Origin: Rhizodiscina lignyota
Taxonomy: Eukaryota > Ascomycota > Dothideomycetes > Aulographales > Rhizodiscinaceae
Assembly: GCA_010015805.1 (NCBI GenBank)
Contig: ML978124.1
Span: forward strand, 806,001-870,000
Reading direction: 5' to 3'
DNA length: 64,000 nucleotides
Below, piece by piece: positions 34,159 through 58,665 of this stretch (position 1 is the first letter of the stretch; the number at the start of each line of letters is the position of its first letter). The position numbers and the translations under genes are program-made. The notes beneath the pieces were generated by a model. That model was not told where the DNA came from. It was given only the letters and a program-made list of their open reading frames with translations, and did no database searches.

Positions 34159-35481
34159 TCATGTGTTCATTGGAAAAGACACCATGGGGAACAGCACAGC
34201 TGGTATATACGACGAGTCTGTCAACGACGGTCTGTGCCTCCTAGCCATAGTACGTTTATGTCTTCTGAGAACAAGCTTGATGTAAGAATAGAGTATCGTC
34301 CGATATGCTTCTCTCGAGATCTTGGCGGGTAACCTTGGATCGCGGTGGAATCTATGCCACGTTTCTTGATACACGGCTTCCAAGCTGTTCAAGAATTCGG
34401 AAGAACCATCGTTTTCCGAGTCTGCCGCTATGCCGTGCGCTGTCGAGGATGTCGTATGAATGAGTCCAAGTCGATTCCAAAGCACCCAGGCTACGCCGAC
34501 AAAAATGCGCATTTGCTCTTTGGACTTCTCCACGATCCAACCAGCTGCTATTTTCGCTACAGTAGTCATCCATACCTCCCGCAAGGAGCGTCTATAATTT
34601 ACGGGCACTTGATAGACTTCACCCAGCATGGAGAGGAGCGCAAAAACCTGGTCTCGCGGTTCAGAGCACTGGCATCCCGCCGTAAGCAATAACACAGAGT
34701 GCCAACTCCTTTGCGATGCCCCCTGCTCGCCGAAATGACTACGGCCGCGAACAACCAACATGACTGACAGGCGGTCTGCATACTCAGCTTCTCCAGTTCT
34801 TAACAGGCCGCCTCGTCGAGATACATTCGGGTCGAAGGTGTCCAGATCGAGGGAGCGCGAACCAAGATACATTTGCAGCCGCTTCGCGAGCAGCATTTCC
34901 TGACAGACCCAAAGACGCGTCCAGTAAGAATTATCAAACACTTGCTCCAATGCCGCTCTATGATTTTGTGGCTTCAGTCGTGAATCTCGGTCGTTTTTAA
35001 GATTGCTACTCCGTGATTGCAGAGCAGTCATCAAGCCGCCGCTACCTGGGAAAGCTTGACCGAGCCATATGACCACTTCCTCGGCATTGCTGTAAATATC
35101 GCCCATTTGCTGAACCTGATGATTTCGTTCTATTTTATTGTCCTGGTCAATGGTGATCTGGTCAATCCAAAAACGAGTTGGTAAACTCAGCTCAGGCTGC
35201 GACTGAGCCATTGTCAAGAACTCGTAGAGATTTTGCCGAACAGAAAGAAGCCTGCCCTCGATGACTATATTGCTGCTCGGATCAGGCTCGCCCCAGGTGT
35301 ACGAGAGTGCTTTGTAGACAGGCTTGTCATCCAGACTGACATTTTCGATTTTACATCTCACACCTGTGGAAGCCCCTGCAGGAGCACGCAGAATCTGTAC
35401 GAGACGTATCTGTCGTTGATTAAGGTCGAGAGGCTTGTGGTGGAAGCGGCCATCAAATACACCTCCGATGAAAGGGACCAT
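34159..35481 (-). CDS. HET (heterokaryon incompatibility) domain protein
   Basis: A single-exon frame of 440 residues. The start was placed at ATG 35481; the frame is open further upstream, but without an ATG. The HET core lies at ~45-170: YKALSYTWGEPDPS (block 1), FWIDQITIDQDNKIERNHQV with the typical D-Q-x-x-x-x-E-R-xxQ pattern (block 2), then VVIWLGQAF and WTRLWVCQEM (block 3). These domains occur in fungal proteins that trigger cell death on fusion with a non-self strain, though many copies have no assigned role. The remaining C-terminal ~230 residues are helical, with PRDQVFALLSML, another family hallmark. It lies next to, and divergent from, a Zn2Cys6 regulator. Confidence 0.88.
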   Translation of the reverse strand: MVPFIGGVFDGRFHHKPLDLNQRQIRLVQILRAPAGASTGVRCKIENVSLDDKPVYKALSYTWGEPDPSSNIVIEGRLLSVRQNLYEFLTMAQSQPELSLPTRFWIDQITIDQDNKIERNHQVQQMGDIYSNAEEVVIWLGQAFPGSGGLMTALQSRSSNLKNDRDSRLKPQNHRAALEQVFDNSYWTRLWVCQEMLLAKRLQMYLGSRSLDLDTFDPNVSRRGGLLRTGEAEYADRLSVMLVVRGRSHFGEQGASQRSWHSVLLLTAGCQCSEPRDQVFALLSMLGEVYQVPVNYRRSLREVWMTTVAKIAAGWIVEKSKEQMRIFVGVAWVLWNRLGLIHTTSSTAHGIAADSENDGSSEFLNSLEAVYQETWHRFHRDPRLPAKISREAYRTILYSYIKLVLRRHKRTMARRHRPSLTDSSYIPAVLFPMVSFPMNT

Positions 35482-35925
35482 GGCAGTGCATACCTTCTCG
35501 GTATCAGTTGCAGATTTCTCGAGAGAATTTCGTCCTGAGGCTGAGCAACGCCACAAAATCTCGCAATCACGTGTTCGGTGAATTGATTCCGCTTTGGGTC
35601 TTAGGGCAATTCGGACGACGAATAGCGAAGGCTAAGGCGCGATTCGCGAGTCAACCTCCACATGCAGCCCCACGACGATGCCTTGCGAAACTACGCAGGG
35701 CAGACTATACAGTGCTTGGTTGTTGTCCAAGCCACGATGGTCAACGTGGATGTAGCTCAGGGCAACTTGAGCGGGCTTTTCCATTCCTTTTATCTTTGCC
35801 GCAGGTGATCTCAACTCGCGCAATGTTACTCTCTTTAGCTTCGCTTCGACGCGTTTTTGCCCCTCAACATCAAACTCCAGTACTAGTTGATCAATCATCT
35901 GAGTGTTCGAGAGTCCTTGTCCAAT
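35482..35925. promoter_or_regulatory. Bidirectional promoter between HET and Zn2Cys6 genes
   Basis: 444 bp between divergent start codons. Long shadow frames cross it on both strands but show no domain. No clear CGG-type inverted pair for the neighbouring Zn2Cys6 factor was found by eye. Confidence 0.45.
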
Positions 35926-37647: not shown

Positions 37648-38432
37648 TTTATGATGACATCTACATGTCAACAGTACGACCGACGACCGACGATAGAACT
37701 TCATGTCCGCTATGCTTGTAGGTTTTAGATGTTTTCTGGACGAGGTTCCCCCGTTAAGGCTGGACTGATACCGTTAATTGCTGCGGTGGCTGCGCGTTGT
37801 GTTCTTTGGCATCGAGCGTCTGCTCTGTTTGTTACTTATGGCTTTGAAAATATCAATTACATTTTGACTTGCTCTTTCGACGACAGACATCAGTGATTCA
37901 TTCGTGGCTTGTTCTCTGGGCTGGCTCTGCTCACCGGCCGCCAAAGCGGGAGTGCGGGCATGACATAATCAGGGTCAGGCTCGGCAAGCCCCGCGCTAGT
38001 GCGCGCGCCTACGTTCTCTGGCCATAGCTTCTTGTGATAGCGCCACCTACTGCCGAAAGTTCACCTAAGATCCAAACACGAAATTCACTGCACCCTCGAC
38101 CATCTTTGCTTGTGTTAAAGCATGGGTTGTGTCTTCTTCTTGAGCACACCGTTTGACACGTCTGCCTGAATTTTTAACGCCTCGATCTTTCTTCCGGGGC
38201 CTCAACAAGCAGCCTTGCTACGTCACCTTTTTTTTCTCCCTTAAGGCTGAAGTGCCAGGCTACAGCTGCGGCGGACGTGCAGGAGCTATCAATTCATTCT
38301 TGAATTCTGCTCCCGCGCCTTCACTGCCTTCTTTTCTCGTTTGGAAGCAACAACTGGTTGTAGCTTTCGGGCACGCACTCGCTCGCGTTGATCGATACAT
38401 ATTCTGGTTGGCCTCGTTGCAGGGATTCCGCT
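37648..38432. other. Promoter and leader region of the giant deubiquitinase gene
   Basis: 785 bp between two plus-strand genes. It should hold the poly(A) region of the transcription factor gene and the promoter of the deubiquitinase gene. The last 250 bp are T/C-rich, leader-like. Nothing else is seen. Confidence 0.45.
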
Positions 38433-41400
38433 ATGGAGCCAAACGACGACCGCGATGGCACTGCACCTCCACCCACCACGGTTCACAGTTCGCGTGCCCC
38501 AAGCTCGGAGCCTTCTTTGCCTCGCCGCGACCTTGAAGAGGATGCCGATACATCAGTGACCAGAAAACGCCCGCGCTTGGATAGCGGAGACCGGGCCACC
38601 AGAAGCATGTCGGCCGACAGAATATTATCCATGTCAACAAAGCCTGAGCCTCAACACTCCGCGGATGCGAACTCTGTCGAACACCACCAGAACTCTACTA
38701 ACGCTGAAGACACTCCAAGCAAACTCACCATCACCGTTCGACCACATCTAACTTCTCCTTCAAATGAAACCATCACTGACACCAGTCTTTCTGCTGGCAA
38801 CAATCACAACGGTCTTCCTACACCACCTGATGCCATGAATATCGACACGATGACGCCATCAACACCAACGAAAGAGCCTCACGACATGCGCGATGAGAAT
38901 GCTCGTAATGATTCTCTGATTGACGAAATGAAGAGCTCGCCGCCGGTCGTGGAAGTCGACGGGTCGCTCGATGATGGTGTTTCGGCACCAATAGTCACCA
39001 TGGATAACGAGGAATATCTGAGCCCCGCCGCTTTGCTTGGGTCTTTTCCCTTTCGCCAGCCTCACGAGACATATATCCAGGCGGCCAAGAATGTTACAGA
39101 AATGATGCAAAGCGGCACCCTCAAGACTGAAGTGCTTCGAGGTCTCTCTGACTGGATTGAGGAACACTTACGAGTCACTGCTCATTCTGAAGACCTCTGG
39201 GCCGACTTGTATTGTGAAGATAGCCCTTTTTGGGAGGAGATTGGCACAGGTTTCTCCAAGCTCTCCAACCGAAGTAAAGTTCAGTTCCTCGACAGCACTG
39301 TGCAACAAGGATTTGCGGCTGTCGAAAAGCTCGTCAGATCTTACGTCCAGCTCTGTGCCCGGCTGTTACGGGTCGATACATTTCTTCTCCAGCAACTAAA
39401 GGAGGACGAGGAAAAATTCCGACTCCTCTGCGCGCGGTATCTCCGAGCCATGGCGCAGATTGCGCAGTGTCCTTGTGGAGGCGACGACGGCGGCATTCGA
39501 GATCTGCTCACAAAAGCCTACACCCGCACACAGACCAGAGTTACGATGCAACTACTTGATGTCTTCTTCAGCGAGTCCGTCAACGGAATGCGTTCGCTTG
39601 TACCTTTCGCGGCGCATTGCTTTGAGTGGTCTCACCGACACGCAGGACTCTGCCAGCCTCTTTTGTACGCCATTAAGATCACCACTGGCTTCGCGAGATG
39701 CGTCGAGGAAAATACGATGCATTATGGGCAATTGACTATCGACCCGCAACTGCAAGCTCCGTTCATCACGACTGCTGTGCAAATGTTTCGTGCTATTAAT
39801 GTGCATCTTCAAGATTGCGCCGGAAAGGTTTCTTTTCTACCAAATGAAGTCCGCAGGAGTCTCTTCGACACCACCTCTTCTCTCCTCATCGAGCTCTCAC
39901 GATTGTCCGAGGAGCAGGCGACTCTTCTTTTCCAAGCTCTTGTCGGTGATCCAAACTCGTGCCCTAAATCTCTCCGGCCGGAACTCATTGGCCATGTATG
40001 GAAAATCAAGACCTTGAAAAAGCACATCGCCAAAGGCAAGATGGAGATACGGGTCATGGGCGTTGATATCATGCAGCACCTGCTGGTGTCAGTGTGGCAG
40101 GAGCGCGACAGAAACGGCAATGACCCAGTGCTGCAATATCTGGTGACGGTCCTGTTGGAGGAAAAGATTATCAACTACATGGTTGGGGTCGACTCTCACC
40201 CGACTCTCATCTCACGATGCGGAAACATCATTGGTCTTCTTGCTGTGACACACAGATATGGACCCGCTGAAACGGACATTATCTGGAACACAGTCGCCAA
40301 CAGCCCAGATCCTCGTGTCGTCGCCGCTACACTCCAAATGTTCTCGTCAATCCTGAACTTAATTCACATGCCAGATGTGCTGCATATTTGCAAGAAAATG
40401 GAAGAGCTACCGATTGCAGCTTTCAATGTTGATATCGTCCAATTTTTTCGAAGACTTCTCGGTCGAGTACGGGGTACCGATGGCAACACCAGCATCCAAG
40501 AGTGGCATGACAGCCCCGATAGAATGAATGCATACCACCTCTGCATGCGCATGACGAAGGAAACTTTCCCTGGAAAGTCTCAGGTGCCGCAGTCGAAGCA
40601 CATCCACGCCGAGGCCGTGACGGAGTTATTAGGGCTTGCTCAATCGGGCATGTTGGCGGACCGTGCGCTCATTTATGCAGACCTCTTGAAAGAGATTCAA
40701 GCTCGCTCTCCAGAGACAGGGGCAAATATGGAAGTTCTGTTCCATATGCTCAGAAACTGTTTCGAGCAAGATCTTGACACTGCCATGCAACTTGACCTCT
40801 TCAGAATAACAATTGAAGAGCTGCGCAGCTATGTCCAGGTCAGATCGCAAGAATCGTCTACCACGAGCGACCAGAGCTTTTGGCTGGCAGAACTTGGGTC
40901 GAGACTTGACCTCGTGGTCCTCCTCTTGCACCGTAGGCCTGGTTCCGCGCCAGAGGACCTTCTGCGCCCTCTGTGGGATGTCATGGTTGGAGACGAAGCA
41001 ATCAATAACTCTGCAAGAGATGCTGCTTGGTACAAGCTTGCCGACATTGCTCGACCTCAAAATGTCCACCAACCGTTTCTTGATCGGTCTCTTACTCAAT
41101 ACCTCCCGGAACTGAATCCTCAATATTACACCCCTCAGCTGTATTCCTTCATCGAAAAGGGAGTCAGATATCAACTCGTCCTTCAAGGAGGTGCTCGGTT
41201 GAATGGGGAGGGCCTCGTTGATGTGCCAAGTGCAGACTTAATGTGGCGTGCAATGCTCTCCGCACCAGTCGGCACTATTGAGGACGCTGTGAGCAAGCTC
41301 CTAGCTGCCGCATACAATGATACAGCTCTTGGCAAATTACCAAAGACTGCCATTGAGGCGACACACATTTTTGTTGCCAACAAATGCGTCAGTGAGATGG

Positions 41401-44400
41401 TCAAAGCAGCCTCTGAGGCCCAACCACAGACTATGGATTCTAGCGACGCTATGGAAACTGAGGAGCCAAGTAATGTCGTTTCTTCAGTGGTACGCTTCCG
41501 TCGAACGGTCTTCTTCCTTGGGACGTTATTGCAAAGCGTACGAAGCAATACAGCATTCATTACAGCTCCAAAGCCGACTATTGATACGGATACTTTGCCA
41601 GACATCAATCGTGGTGATCCAATCATCATTAAGTATCAATCGTTCAACGGCCATGTAGGTCCTTGGGAATCGGTTGAGGTGGGCGACCTGGAGACACGGC
41701 GCGACCTCTACGTTAGACTCTCTAGGCGAACAGGATTCCAAAACTTTTTCATCATCTCTTCCGGTCAAAGATTGAATCTGCTGGACAATGCCTCACAGAC
41801 CCTGCAAGAGTGGGGCAAAGCTAAGACACCAATACTGGTGAAGAAGGATACGAATGCTGCAGATTTTACCGACAATAATCTCAGCGTGGGACGATGTGCC
41901 ATGGAGATGGAAATTCTGAAGAGCTTTGATAAGCTATACGCCCTGATGGACCGAGATGACGAATTGGCTCGACTGACGTACGATTTTCTGGCAAAATTCC
42001 CACCGCACCAAAGCACCCAGCTTGGTCCGTTATGCAGCGGAACTGCAACAGTGGACGACGCATTCCCGGCCGGCAAACTATTCAAGACAAGATACAGTAT
42101 CCGCTGCCTTCAAGCACGCCTTGAGTCACAACTGCGTTCGAGCAGCGTAGATTTGCCTTTCGTGCAAGGTTCCTTGCGCCTCCTCTCAGCTGCCTTTAGC
42201 TGCGGCAGAGTATCCAGAGAATCCAGCAATGATCATCTCGACATAACGGTGATCTCTGAAATGGTGCATTGCTATTTGAAATTCCTTAGGGAAATTCCTA
42301 CCAAGGCTGAGGATATTCCTGACGGCGAGATCTTGGCTGACCAACTCCTGGCCGTCTTGGAGAACTCTATGGCATCTTCACTAGAGATTCTCATGTGTGA
42401 GACCTACTACACGATATTGCTTGCATCGCTGCACTGGCCCTCGGTATGGAATAGACTTCAAACGAAGGACCTGGAAGAGCTTCATAAGCAACTCCTACTC
42501 GTAGATTTCCAACCAGGTCCGATACCGAATCTCGGCAATGCTGAGCGTCCCACTGTCAGAGCCAACATATCACATTTCATCAAGGAGCTCATATCAACTG
42601 ATCTCCCGTGGGCGTGTGTGACCGCAAACGAGATTGCAGCATTCTTCTGGAAGTTGTTCGTGCCTATGCTCCCGGAGACCATCAATTATGAAGCCCATTC
42701 TGTCGACTTCTTTCACATCGCGGATAATGTTTTTGTTAAGCTCTACGAAGAGTCGGATGAATCGAAATTGAGAGACGACACAGATGAATTGAGAGTGCTT
42801 TTTGAGACCTGGAGTGCTCTGCTTCTAGAGCACAAACCCGAAGAATTCGCCGGGCGAGATGAACGTGTTCCTATCGTCTATGGCTTTGCCCAACTGCTGC
42901 GACACTGTGCTTACTTCCTTCGGCAAAGCGCGAAACCAATACAGGCTGATCAGTTTATTGAAGACCTTTTCGACCGATTCCTCTTTCCGCCCTTGGCTTT
43001 ATCTGAAGCCGATCCGGATGCAACGGCCGCGGAGCTCATGCCATTACTCGATACACTTACGCGGAAGAGAGTCAATCAATTGATCTTGGCTTTATGCCAG
43101 AGCCAGGAGAGTTTGAAAAAGATGATCGCTCGCGCGAACGACTCACTTTTCGACTATGATCCTCAACAAGGTCTTTACTGGAGAAACCGTACACTCCGAT
43201 CATCTACTGGACTTGTTGGAATCAAGAACCTCGGTAACACATGTTACATGAATTCGTTGCTCACTCAACTGTTCATGAATGTTGCATTTCGAAAGTTCAT
43301 TCTCAGCGTACCGGTACAGGAAGATTCCCAAACTCAGCCGCTAGTCTGGAATATGCAGGTTCTCTTTACGAAAATGCAAAATGGATATGGGAAATATGTC
43401 GACGCTACGAAGCTTACGCAGTCCATCAGAACTTTCGAGGGAGAAGCAATCGACATCACGCAACAGATGGATGTAGAAGAGTTTGAGAATTTGCTCATCG
43501 ACCAACTTGAGGGCCAAATTTTGGATCCGGTGTCTAAGCAAGTTTTCCGCGACTTTTATGGCGGCCAGATGATCAATCAGATCAAGTCGAAGGAATGCGA
43601 GCATGTTTCGGAAAGACTTGAGCCTTACTTTGCAGTTCAATGCGATGTAAAGGGCAAGAGTAATCTCTGGGAGAGTCTACAAGCCTTTGTCGAAGGAGAT
43701 GTGATGGAGGGAGACAACAAGTACAAGTGCGAATCATGTGGTGGCCGTTTTGTCAGCGCTGTCAAACGGGTCTGTCTGAAAGATGTTCCAGACAACCTCA
43801 TCTTCCATCTGAAGCGCTTCGACTTCGACATTGGCACGATGCAGCGGAGCAAGATCAACGACCTGTTCGAGTTCCCAATGCGCATAAACGTCCACCCATA
43901 CACCATCGAGCACCTCAACAATCCCGCCAATGCAACCGAGGACAACTTTGACTTGGTTGGAGTATTGCTACACAAGGGCGTTGCAGAGCATGGCCACTAC
44001 TTCTCTTATATCCGCTCGCGACCTGGTGTAAACAACGAGCCACCGAAATGGATTCAATTCGACGATGCAGATGTGACAGAGTTCAACCCGTCAGAGATAA
44101 AGGAAAAATGCTTTGGCGGCTGGATGGACCCGAAAGAGGTGCCTCTTATTGACGGCCAAATTCTTCAAAAGGGTTACAACGCGTACATGCTTTTCTACCA
44201 GCGAGCAAACACAATCGAGCGCACCGATACCCTCATCCAGCAACCATTGCCAGGACCACCTGGCCCGCCCAAAGTTGCAGTGCCGGAAGCGCTTGAGAAA
44301 AGTGTCGCTGGCGAAAACGAATCAATGCTTCGCGAGTACGCCACCTTCGATCCAGAGCACATGGTCTTCATTGAGAACTTGCTTGGCAAGCTGCCATCAC

Positions 44401-46125
44401 TCCAAGGCCAGCAGTCCTGCTCCAACTCCCATGAATTTGAAAAGGCATCCATCAAACTCGCCATGAGATATCTCCACCAGGTCTATAGTCGCACAAAGGA
44501 TGTGCAGGCAACTCAGAGAATGTTCAGACTCATACGCAACATCATCGGGGATTGCTTGACCTGCAATATGTATGCCTTGACTCTCATCGCTCCAGAGCAA
44601 GGCGAGGAGCTGGAAGACACGAACCTCTTCCTCGATCTCACGATTCGTACAACCCTCGTCATTGTTCGCCACGAGTTTGCCGAGTTGATACTGGACATTC
44701 TCATGCTTCTGCGCGAACATGCGGATCTCGAAAAGTATGGCGTTCCCAATTGTGACGATGAATTTGACCCAGACCATCCATTTTTTGGCGTGGCTCCTGC
44801 AATTATTAGAATCTCGAAGGTTTGCGTCGAAACCATTCCGAAACTGGCCCTCAACCTCCGAGCTTGGGATGACTTTTTCAATTTGGTCCTTCGAATAGCC
44901 GGATTGGGCATTGGAGAAGTCAGCGCTCTCTTGTCTCATGGAGTATTCCAGATGTGTCTGGAGATCCTCTGCTGCAGTTGGACCCACCAGCGAGAAGAGC
45001 CTGAGTGGAAGAGACTCTACAAGCTACTCGAGAAACGCAGAGCACCTCACAACAAGCTCGTTGAACTGGTCCACATGCTTCTCAGCTCTATCGACCTACA
45101 GCAAGAAGTTGCCTTTGACAGTGAAGATCGCCTCGAGACTCTAAACGCGGAGACATACAAGTTCAGTCTCACTCAAAAAGAAGAGGCGCTTCTCACGGCC
45201 TGGGACTCCAGGAATGACGAGTATCCTCTGATTATGCGCATGTTTGATGCCTGGGATTATTTGCCGAATGAGCCATGCTACCCAAGCGAGATCCTGGCCA
45301 TCCTCATGAACGCAAACCTTGGGAATCCCCGCCAATTCCAGACCACTATCAGGAATGGACTGGAGGGGTATGGAGGTACAAACCTACAACCATTCTACGA
45401 TGGTGCCGCGGTATTCTGTCGTCAGAGCCATCACCGTCAGCTCATAATTGATATCCTCGACTTCTGTGTCGAACAAACCTTCCACCTTGATGCAAATAAT
45501 CTGGGCGTGCCCATACTTCGCTTCTTCAATACAATAACGAAGGCAGAAGCAACCAGTTCCTGGAAAGGTATCTACACACATTTGATGCGGAAGGTGGGTA
45601 GTTGGGCTCCGAATTTGTTGATGGATACGGATCACGCTGTACGCAACAGCACCTTCGACTTCGCCTTCGAGGTGCTCGTGGACTACACAATTCCAACGCT
45701 AGAGGAGCCATCCCAATTTGACAAGGAGAGGGTTAAGGCTGTTCACAGTTTCATCATTGAGGGAAGCAACAAATTGCGCCGTTCATTCAACACACAACAA
45801 CTTGGAAAGCAATCACTCTCGTCCATTGTCACCATGCTAGTTGATGCTGCGCAGTTCCTGCAGGATCTGAACAAGAGCGAGAAGCCGGGAACGATCGCTC
45901 TTAGGGACAAGATTGATGACGATTTGATCGCCAAAGTACATGAGCTTCGCCAGGAGTACGAAAGCTGGCCGTTCGAGGATTCTGAAGTGGCACAATCTGG
46001 TACGTTCAGCAAGTTCATCCACGAGCTACTTGACTACTCTTACTAACACAAGCTGTTCGCTACCCGCAGACGAAGAGTGGCCGTCGGACGGGCTTCTCAC
46101 AGATGATGAGTACCTCGACAATTGA
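38433..46125 (+). CDS. Very large ubiquitin C-terminal hydrolase (USP34/FAF-like, fungal)
   Basis: Two exons, 38433-45999 and 46070-46125, give 2,540 residues. The start ATG 38433 opens MEPNDDRDGTAPPP. The peptidase C19 domain lies at ~1590-1910. The Cys box NLGNTCYMNSLLTQL carries Cys1604, the His box GVAEHGHYFSYI carries His1855, and WIQFDDADV supplies the acidic third residue. A zinc-finger pair survives as CESCG; the opposite side (KECEHVSER) keeps only one Cys. A ubiquitin-like segment seems to lie at ~1060-1140. The rest is helical-repeat scaffold, as in USP34/USP9X relatives. The last intron has a GTACGT donor and a perfect TACTAAC branch site and adds DEEWPSDGLLTDDEYLDN, an acidic tail; without splicing a different 15-residue end is made. 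Substrates are unknown. Confidence 0.93.
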
Positions 46126-54602: not shown

Positions 54603-54850
54603 CTACTGCTCTGCATCTTTCGCAACCTCCTCGTCGTCCACGACTTCTTTCTGATCAGCATCATCCTTCTGAACCACACCAACCTTCTCCTCTGCACCGG
54701 TTCTGTCCTCTGCGATGTCATTCTTCTCTGCAGCGTCCTTCTCCTTTGTAGTGTCCTTCTCCTTCGCAACTTCTTTCTGATCCGCACCATCCTTCTGAAC
54801 AGCGACATCCTTCTGAACAGCGACAGCCTTCTTCTGAATAGCGACAGCAA
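54603..54850. repeat. Minisatellite encoding a charged C-terminal tail
   Basis: The last ~250 coding bases consist of degenerate ~15-18 bp units such as CCTTCTGAACAGCGACA and its variants on the plus strand. They encode xxQKDxA/EKDxx-type repeats. Such tracts change in length by slippage, so the tail is likely variable between strains. Confidence 0.7.
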
Positions 54851-56460
54851 AAGGATTCACTTCAAACTCCTTTAGTACGAAGGGGCATCGTTCCTGAGTC
54901 ATGCTGCCCCACGTGTTGCCTCCAGATGGCGGCAGTCCTTTCATCGCCAGCATAACGCTCCATATGAAGTTGTGTGGAACCTCTTCTCTGCGAGCGCTAT
55001 CTATCAGGTGAAGGTCAGCGTGGGAGCTGAACTTGACCACAAGGACCTTCAGCAGTGGGTCTTGCTCCGGAAGATTGTCATATGCCTCCTTGATCATATC
55101 TGGCGACAGTCCCTCCTTGCAGAATGGGTTTCTCATCTGCGTCCAGATTGCCTGAAGGGTTTCTCGCTTGAGTAGAGGGATGCGGTAACGATCGGCGAAG
55201 AGATAGAGCTTAAGGAGGAGCTCGTAGGGCAAGCGCTCTGGCTGTGCGGAGCCGTCGAAATCATCGACGAGCTTTCGGGAGTGGAGCCACTCGATGAAAT
55301 GGACGATTACCACTGGTTCGGTCTCCGGAAACTCCAGGACGTCCTCAGGTTTGTCCATGAAATAAGGCGATACGGCATAGAGCCAGGACTTCCAAGACTT
55401 GTACTCCTTTTTTTCAGGGCCGATGAGGAGGGTTACAGGTTTGAGGTTCTCAAATCTAAATGTCCAGTTCAGCACTGTCAAGAACTTAATTGCTTTGTAG
55501 AACATACTGATGAGTAGGCCGGAGTCCGTCGGGTAACATATTGCGCATTTTCGGGCGAGAGGCTACTTGGAACTCGAAGGATCCACCCATATTCGCGGTG
55601 TACTCCGCGAATGGAATTGTCTGGCGAGAGCCCTGCTCATTCGAATCTTTATGTGTTGGCAGTTTTCCCCTGCCCGCGATGGAATCGGCAAGTCGATGTT
55701 CCTCTAGAGACCACAGTTCATAAGTCGGCTGCATCGAAATGGACTGGAAGACTACTATTCTCGTACCTTCCTTCACCTTTGTCGGCTCAAACGGACGAGT
55801 GCCGGTGCCTGCATCCTCAGGCAATGCTGTTACGCCTCTTGGAGGACCACCACTGCTTGCAATACTGAGCCCTGCTCCAAATCCTCCAAACGCTCGTGCG
55901 CTTGAAGCCATGGACTGGCCGTTGCCGCCGGCATTGTTGTCAGTCGAGACACGAAGGTTGCTGAAGAGCCCGCCTCCGGTGTTGCTGCCGCTCCCAAAGC
56001 CAGAGTTACCGCCACTCCCAAAGCCAGAGTTGCCGCTCCCAAAGCCAGTGTTGCCGCTCCCAAAGCCAGAGTTACCGCTCCCAAAGCCAGAGTTACCGCC
56101 ACCGAAGAGTCCGCCTCCGGTGTTGTTGCTGCTCCCAAAGCCACCGCTACCGTGACCGAAGAATCCAGGTGAAGGGGCACCTATGGCGGCGAAGAGGCCA
56201 TCTCTCTGAGGACTGCCGAAGCCACTAAAGGTGCTAAGATTTCCCAGGTTGTTGTTGGATGACGTGCTTACCACACTGGCAGTTGGAACACCGCTGGTAC
56301 CGCTTCCACCGGATGCGTCTTGAGCACTCGAGCTGTCGAAAACCTTGCGAGCAGCGCCTTTCATAGCAATGTCTGCTGTGAGCGGATGGGCTCCACATGG
56401 GTGAGTAGCACCACAGATTGCGCACTTTAGTGCGCCGTCGCCGTCATCTCCGCCAGACAT
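54603..56460 (-). CDS. FG-repeat/Nup98-linker-like protein fused to a BTB/POZ domain
   Basis: Two exons, 56460-55508 and 55455-54603, give 601 residues. A Cys/His motif CAICGATHPCGAH lies at ~13-25. A Gly/Ser/Phe/Asn-rich region follows, including tandem GFGSGN units at ~110-160. The stretch GTGTRPFEPTKVKEGTRIVV then FQSISMQPTYELWSLEEHRL resembles the region after the GLFG repeats of fungal Nup98 (FQSI..p-Y..-S-EELRL.DY). The intron (GTATGT...ATTTAG) joins RPTHQ to FENLKPVTLLIG, opening a BTB fold: YKSWKSWLYAVSPYF, then FIEWLHSRKLVDD. The C-terminal ~80 residues are Lys/Glu/Asp/Ala-rich imperfect repeats. BTB proteins dimerise or act as Cul3 adaptors; no further function is evident. The neighbour downstream on the plus strand is a diverged paralogue. 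Confidence 0.8.
55970..56130. repeat. Tandem repeat encoding GFGSGN units
   Basis: Repeated units around CCGCTCCCAAAGCCAGAG (18 bp, with some 3-bp insertions) make up the region and encode successive GFGSGN or GFGSGG hexads on the minus strand. At least six copies are visible. They are nearly identical, pointing to recent expansion. Confidence 0.85.
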
Positions 56461-57296: not shown

Positions 57297-58665
57297 TCAC
57301 TTGGTCTTCCTGGATACTTCCTCAGATAGCTGAAAAGGACACCAGTGCTTCTTCAGAATCGACTCTCCACTCCCAGCGCCTTTACCCTTAACCTTTGAGA
57401 GGACACGAAACAGGAAGTCATTTGGATACTGTTCCCCATCACTTTGCTTCAGCTGACTCATGTCGAAATCCACAGCGAACTTCTCAGCAAGTATCTCCAG
57501 CAGCGGATCCTTCTCTGGGAGGCTACTGTAGGCCTTTGTCACCGACTTCAATGAGAGCGCCTGTCCATCTCCCTGACCGAGTCTCACGTGTGTCCACAGC
57601 ACTTGGAGGACGTCTCGCTTAAGTTGCAGCACATTGAACGTGTCGGAGAAGACGTAGAGGTTAAACAGGAGGTCGTACGGCCACTGTGATGCTTTTTTGT
57701 GTCCTTTGTCGTCAACAAGGCAACGAGAATGGAGCCACTCGAGGAAGTAGGCAAACGTCTCGGGGTCCGTATCTAGCTCAACAGTGTTTTCCGTTGATTC
57801 TCTGGTGCCCCCGTTGAACACGCCTTCGAAGTACGGCGAGACTGCGCAGAGGAATGACTTCCATACCAGGAACGGCTTCTTCTCGGAGCCCACGACAACA
57901 GTCACGGGCTCAAGATTATCATATCTGGTTTGCGTCAGTATCTTCAATCCGATACACTTTCGAAGTCCCTTACCGAAGAGTGGGCCTGTACACTAAGTCC
58001 GTATCGTCGGAACGTTTACGCTTCACTGTGCCTGGTTGTGTGGTCTGCGGAGATGGAGGCGGAGCAGCTGCAAATGGACTGATTGAGTTCGCGTTGCTGA
58101 ACAGAAGGCTACCAGAGGGTACGGTAGCTTGAATAGGTGTTTTTGCGCTTCCTCCAAGTGAGCCGCTGTTACTCAGGGTGTTGCTAACATTGCTGCTGTT
58201 GTCGGGCGAGGTGTTGTGAGCAGCAAGATATGGAGTGGTCCCAAGGACACCGCTCTCTTTCCAGTTACGAAATATGGCACTGCTGCTCCGCTGGTCTTTC
58301 TGTAATGACGTGCCAAGAGCACCAGAGCCCGGTGTGAAGGGGCCGGATTGGGACGACGAATTGGAGTTGCTGGAGGATTCTTGTCGAGGTGGGAAGGTTT
58401 GTGGGATGCCACCACGACCTCTTGGGGTGCCACCACGGCCTCTGGGGCTGCCACCACGACCTCTGGGGTTGTCATGGGCGGGTGTCTGTTGCGGCATGGC
58501 AGCGAGGACCGCGGAGCCACTGCCAAGGTTGCTTGGGTTGCTGTTGTTGGTGTTGTTGTTCGGCGCGTTATTAGATGACGAAGTATTTACAGCGCTGGCG
58601 AAATGCGCTGCACATGGCCAGGCAGCACCGCAGGAACTGCAGTAGGATGGAGCGCGACTAGCCAT
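57297..58665 (-). CDS. RGG-repeat BTB/POZ protein, paralogue of the FG-repeat BTB gene
   Basis: Two exons, 58665-57974 and 57924-57297, give 439 residues. The N-terminal Cys/His motif CSSCGAAWPCAAH matches the neighbour's CAICGATHPCGAH. An Asn/Ser-rich stretch and three PRGRGG units (~73-93) follow, then Ser/Pro/Asn-rich text and KRKRSDD, a possible nuclear signal. The intron (GTAAGG...ACCAG) joins RPTLR to YDNLEPVTVVVG, the same junction as in the paralogue (RPTHQ/FENLKPVT). The BTB domain follows: FLVWKSFLCAVSPYF, YFLEWLHSRCLVDD and a C-terminal helical part with LPEKDPLLEILAEKF. There is no Nup98-like linker and no charged tail. Function is unknown; RGG units suggest RNA or protein binding. 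Confidence 0.8.
58410..58475. repeat. 21-bp tandem repeat encoding PRGRGG units
   Basis: Three copies of a 21-bp unit containing ACCACGACCTCTGGGG or close variants encode PRGRGGS, PRGRGGT and PRGRGGI on the minus strand. Copies differ by one to three bases. Confidence 0.85.

Follow-up and report, generated by a model that had tools for sequence, protein, structure and literature searches.

Gene A (54603..56460, minus strand) encodes, in spliced translation, a protein of 601 aa in which a Cys motif, FG repeats, a GLEBS motif, a BTB domain and a charged tail follow one another, confirming the original prediction that FG repeats, a Nup98-like segment and a BTB domain reside in a single protein. 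Judged from sequence comparison, gene A is probably a BTB paralogue equipped with a Nup98 FG-GLEBS module that would bind Gle2 away from Nup98 or in competition with it. The domains themselves are known; their order was not found in the literature searched and is seen in one genome, and it hints at an unusual, putative connection of RNA export with BTB proteins.

Gene A and its tandem paralogue

The window, i.e., the whole stretch of DNA that was analyzed, spans 64,000 nt, and the genome searched comprises 33.4 Mb distributed over 29 contigs. Gene A is built from (i) exon 1 (55508..56460, minus strand; 953 nt, phase 2 at its end), with no stops in the coding frame vs 6 to 13 in each of the other five; (ii) a 52-nt intron (55456..55507, minus strand; GTATGT...TTAG); and (iii) exon 2 (54603..55455, minus strand), which carries the BTB domain and the tail. 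On the same strand, a CxxCGxxxPCxAH motif located near the N-terminus (56386..56424) precedes an FG-repeat stretch (55876..56235; residues 76-195) with 11 FG dipeptides and one GLFG, which includes, at the DNA level, a tandem array of period 21 that codes for units of the SGFGSGN type (55986..56099). The GLEBS-like motif follows (55669..55815; residues 216-264), and its Glu-Glu pair (55699..55704; residues 253-254) corresponds by alignment to E201/E202 of human Nup98. The linker that holds this Nup98-like module is probably disordered. Downstream of the intron, the BTB domain and the family's C-terminal extension (54942..55436, minus strand; residues 325-489) are followed by a Lys/Glu/Asp/Gln-rich tail, encoded by 18-nt tandem repeats (54683..54848, minus strand) and absent from gene B.

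Gene B (57297..58665, minus strand; 439 aa) is a tandem paralogue located directly upstream of gene A, and displays, in order, an N-terminal CxxCGxxxPCxAH motif (58603-58641, minus strand), a low-complexity linker, an intron (57973-57925) and a BTB domain. The introns of the two genes occupy an identical place and phase, between RPTHQ and FENLKPVT in A and between RPTLR and YDNLEPVT in B, and downstream of them 78 of 205 positions are identical (38%; pairwise E 1e-47). The intron position and the Cys motif common to both genes support the predicted single spliced gene. A pair of separate genes, i.e., an FG-GLEBS protein stopping in-frame at 55486 and a BTB gene whose start lies near the intron, would agree with the unspliced frame, which does run to a stop at 55486, and with an in-frame ATG upstream of the BTB part in the ORF 54603-55562; it is nevertheless extremely improbable and was rejected, because gene B, like gene A, places the Cys motif and the BTB domain on opposite sides of this shared intron.

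A six-frame scan of the window detected the Cys motif in genes A and B only. The first 42 residues of A, used as a protein query of the genome, returned A alone, the short motif of B being beyond the reach of that search, and a looser form of the motif was found solely in the locus holding A (L069) among 63 fetched loci, a set from which six further loci with A or B were left out. The CxxCGxxxPCxAH motif of both tandem BTB proteins is possibly metal-binding and has no Pfam match. The linker of gene B contains its own 21-nt array (58402-58469), with PRGRGG-type units. Similarity of this linker to the FG stretch or to the GLEBS is not detectable, the scores of 33 and 29 lying below their own shuffle maxima of 50 and 51 (1000 tries). 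The module may have been gained by A or lost by B.

The Nup98-like module in the linker

A search of the genome with residues 205-318 of gene A returned three places at E<=10, including (i) gene A itself; (ii) C1:1355586-1355837 on contig C1 (E 8.5e-10); and (iii) a match on contig C5 (E 3.49), which was set aside on its E-value. The C1 match sits in an open frame of 1269 aa that bears PF04096 (E 5.9e-52), the autoproteolytic domain of Nup98, for which the genome returned no other match. In the reverse direction, 61 residues of this Nup98 retrieved Nup98 itself and gene A (E 7.0e-10), with no others at E<=10, so that the predicted kinship of the linker with Nup98 rests on significant matches in both directions. 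The alignment of A with the GLEBS of the genome's Nup98 is ungapped over 49 residues, of which 24 are identical and 33 positive. Its score is 118, whereas 5000 shuffles averaged 20 and peaked at 43, and a chance match was accordingly rejected. The original prediction had likened the segment to the one after the GLFG repeats, wrongly, since the matched stretch of Nup98 is the GLEBS, embedded among FG repeats. By its sequence, the linker segment of gene A is therefore a GLEBS motif of the Nup98 type, which in Nup98 forms the Gle2/Rae1-binding hairpin. A broken copy of Nup98 was rejected, gene A being devoid of PF04096 and the Nup98 frame that bears it residing on C1.

The Pfam model of this motif, PF21240 (Nup98_GLEBS), scores 17.4 bits on the genome's Nup98 (E 0.0046) and detects it at 17 bits (E 0.283) in a whole-genome search, in both cases below the cut-off of 27; it finds no match on gene A, the model being insensitive here, where a true Nup98 reaches only ~17 bits. 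A GLEBS-like regular expression gave one extra match outside Nup98 and A (fetched as L024 and L059, which are the same place), taken as chance for want of any further likeness.

Comparison with the PDB was carried out with each sequence and with both combined. The 61 residues of Nup98 matched 3mmy, 4owr, 7byf and 7vpg at E<=1 (E 0.3-0.42), three of which are named Nup98 or Nup98-Nup96, the fourth, 7byf, being named Peptidase S59 domain-containing protein and aligned over the same stretch. A two-sequence profile of A and Nup98 returned seven sequences at E<=10 (best E 4.2e-4), comprising these four entries together with three longer chains, each carrying the name Nup98 or Nup98-Nup96. The GLEBS of A alone retrieved no Nup98 from the PDB, one such search giving just a phage head-closure protein (E 1.6). 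We take 4owr, 7byf, 7vpg and the longer Nup98 chains to be complexes of Rae1 with the Nup98 GLEBS. Entry 3mmy is the Rae1-Nup98 GLEBS complex, in which the 57-residue GLEBS lies as a hairpin atop the Rae1 propeller and E201/E202 engage in salt bridges (PMC3783196). The motif ties the RNA-export factor Gle2/Rae1 to the pore via Nup98 or Nup116, and in yeast the association is weakened when either the equivalents of the Glu-Glu pair in Nup116 or the arginines that contact them in Gle2 are altered (PMC3783196).

The FG stretch upstream of the GLEBS also resembles Nup98. Residues 102-136 of gene A (56053..56157, minus strand) are nearest to Nup98 exon 2 (GFGSGSFGSSTNTGGGLFGGNTGGGFGTGG), an inferred exon whose borders were placed by eye from splice signals. 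The FG stretch of A scores 107 against this exon; among 570 windows taken from the first 600 residues of the large Nup98 exon, none exceeds 78. In a scan of the Nup98 N-terminal region that included exon 1, each of the eight top-scoring windows overlaps exon 2. Residue shuffles of the FG stretch reached a maximum of 91 in 2000 tries, and shuffles preserving the GFG units a maximum of 104, with none of 2000 attaining 107, a narrow margin, such as repetitive sequence would lead one to expect. In A as in Nup98, exon 2 or its counterpart comes first and the GLEBS second; all 11 FG dipeptides of A precede the GLEBS and none follows it. This shared order, together with the proximity of the FG stretch to the inferred exon 2, lends support to the suggestion that gene A holds a captured duplicate of an N-terminal piece of Nup98.

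An independent origin of a Gle2/Bub3-binding motif within a low-complexity linker could draw on the ease with which FG-like low complexity arises and on the occurrence of the motif, besides Nup98, in Bub1, BubR1/Mad3 and BuGZ (PMC9147866). Such convergence is very improbable, given that the 49-residue ungapped identity extends past the Glu-Glu core (GTG...FEP...KEG) and that the upstream FG stretch is nearest to the very Nup98 exon preceding the GLEBS.

Descent from Nup98 appears to be ancient or followed by rapid change. The DNA alignment of exon 1 of A with Nup98 disclosed nothing clear (score 36; 20 codon shuffles reached at most 33), and with similarity at the DNA level gone, either the event lies far back or the sequence evolves fast. 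Within the 27-residue core of the GLEBS, 13 columns agree between human Nup98 and the genome's Nup98, nine of which are retained in A. The core of A is identical to that of its own genome's Nup98 at 14 of 27 positions and to the human one at 13 of 27, and is therefore about equally near to both and not a recent copy. The Glu-Glu pair is kept (SLEEHRLAD in A vs SFEELRLAD in the genome's Nup98); among six aligned GLEBS sequences, from human NUP98, yeast Mad3 and Bub1, human BUBR1, mouse BUB1 and human BuGZ, it is completely conserved (PMC9147866).

Two of the four core changes in A, Leu to His and Tyr to Ser, lie near the Glu-Glu pair, so that binding of Gle2/Rae1 may be lost. Gle2/Rae1 is conserved in yeasts and hence expected in this genome. 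On account of these two changes, docking of the GLEBS of A on Gle2/Rae1 is given a chance a little better than even. The same changes favor a relic, in which the module would have been captured long ago and would now bind nothing, the linker that joins the Cys motif to the BTB domain being disorder that is tolerated; the tandem GFGSGN array and the shortened BTB domain point in the same direction. Against it, 24 of 49 positions, the Glu-Glu pair among them, have been kept despite the lost DNA-level similarity, and 601 codons remain open with intact splice sites, making a relic unlikely.

The BTB domain and Cul3

The second half of gene A contains a BTB domain, as anticipated. PF00651 itself has no direct match in A at E<=10 in the Pfam search; the assignment derives from a profile of the genome's paralogues (E 1.4e-28) and from the 38% identity to gene B, which passes PF00651 (E 1.3e-7). 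An AlphaFold model of exon 2, calculated from a two-row alignment, was poor (mean pLDDT 44), and a Foldseek search with this model gave Skp1-complex entries as the ten best matches, with BTB domains and Elongin C ranking after them; the lowest E was 8.1e-3, and not one of the 143 matches attained E<=0.001. Neither PF04096 nor a BACK domain was found by Pfam in A, and BACK is also absent from B. When the BTB domain of A was compared with collections of genome contigs and viral contigs, 49 and 10 pattern matches were obtained, respectively, none of which was confirmed.

Clusters of BTB stretches occur in the genome at G000:C4:1734016-1748358 and G000:C14:289866-325566; in the latter cluster, four of nine stretches contain in-frame stops and represent pseudogenes or introns read through.

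The original prediction had also raised the possibility of a Cul3-type adaptor placed at nuclear pores; the GLEBS, for its part, would predict binding of Gle2/Rae1 or Bub3. In a Cul3 substrate adaptor, the BTB domain would bind Cul3 and the GLEBS/FG part would bring Gle2 or pore-associated proteins for ubiquitination. The genome encodes Cul3 (best PDB match Cullin-3, E 1.1e-82), BTB1 of Neurospora binds Cul3 (PMC2996332), and the ubiquitin ligases Highwire and RPM-1 both yielded Rae1 when binding partners were isolated (PMC4806438). On the other hand, mutations at the phi-x-E Cul3-contact motif and in the helix preceding it severely disrupt KLHL3-Cul3 binding (PMC3616122), and at F350-M351-D352 (55353..55361, minus strand) gene A lacks 8-9 residues present in its paralogues, including the apparent phi-x-E site. 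The segment aligned with this motif, whose columns were equated with fungal F-x-E by inference, KLHL3 lying outside the alignment, has no counterpart in A and is T-R-E in B; of 23 other BTB stretches of the genome that were aligned, 15 retain hydrophobic-x-Glu. These features, along with the absence of BACK in both proteins, weaken the proposal and render a Cul3 substrate adaptor quite improbable.

Proposed function and related proteins

The preferred reading, a BTB paralogue with a Nup98 FG-GLEBS module, would operate as follows: (i) the linker supplies an exon-2-like FG stretch and then the GLEBS, homologous to the N-terminal part of Nup98; (ii) the GLEBS hairpin would dock on the Gle2/Rae1 propeller; (iii) the BTB domain may dimerize, yielding a particle with two GLEBS motifs; and (iv) the protein would compete with Nup98 for Gle2 or carry Gle2 to BTB partners. 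The outcome would be a tuning of RNA export by gene A, rather than service as a Cul3 adaptor. It is possible, if somewhat doubtful, that gene A represents a fixed natural Nup98-BTB fusion acting as a dimeric, pore-independent receptor of Gle2/Rae1, and perhaps Bub3, that tunes RNA export or checkpoint function, and thereby an evolutionary counterpart of NUP98 fusion proteins.

Four groups of known proteins provide a comparison. Nup98/Nup145N/Nup116 share with A the FG stretch followed by the GLEBS and the Glu-Glu pair, whereas A has no FG after the GLEBS and no PF04096, carries a BTB domain, and coexists with the genome's own Nup98 elsewhere. Fungal-type BTB proteins, represented here by gene B and the other BTB loci, share the BTB domain with its C-terminal extension and, in the case of B, the intron and Cys motif; A differs by the Nup98-like linker and by the 8-9 residue gap at the apparent phi-x-E. 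The Nup98 portion of NUP98 fusion oncoproteins holds FG repeats and the GLEBS, and the underlying leukemia translocations are somatic and leave the Nup98 sequence unchanged. These oncoproteins (e.g., NUP98-HOXA9) resemble gene A in that a foreign domain is fused to an N-terminal part of Nup98 (PMC2725295), but they are products of translocations in human leukemia, whereas A is genome-encoded and strongly diverged. Bub1, BubR1/Mad3 and BuGZ likewise display a GLEBS on an otherwise unrelated protein and bind Bub3 (PMC9147866); A is set apart by description, its motif having been found through its likeness to Nup98 and being accompanied by FG repeats.

The literature searches covered titles and the beginnings of abstracts, with subscription papers mostly outside their scope, and within these bounds no protein combining a GLEBS with a BTB domain was found; the literature found on fungal paralogs of GLEBS nucleoporins did not concern such a protein. 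Searches for Nup98 with a BTB domain in fungal genomes and for fungal BTB expansion gave no literature. If the preferred reading is true, a BTB protein endowed with another GLEBS of the Nup98 type would allow Gle2 to be relocated or sequestered away from the pore, and evolution would be seen to have domesticated the FG-GLEBS part of Nup98, much as in the leukemia fusions.

Concerning the rest of the window, an Rfam search returned nothing at gathering scores. The window has 19 open frames with 260 codons or more; in 10 of these, scanned with Pfam, HET and Fungal_trans_2 domains were found, with a HET (heterokaryon incompatibility) domain protein at 34159-35631. From this gene content, the DNA is probably fungal. 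An open frame of 2560 codons (38364-46046), located ~8.5 kb from gene A, contains a ubiquitin hydrolase (UCH) domain and DUF3517.
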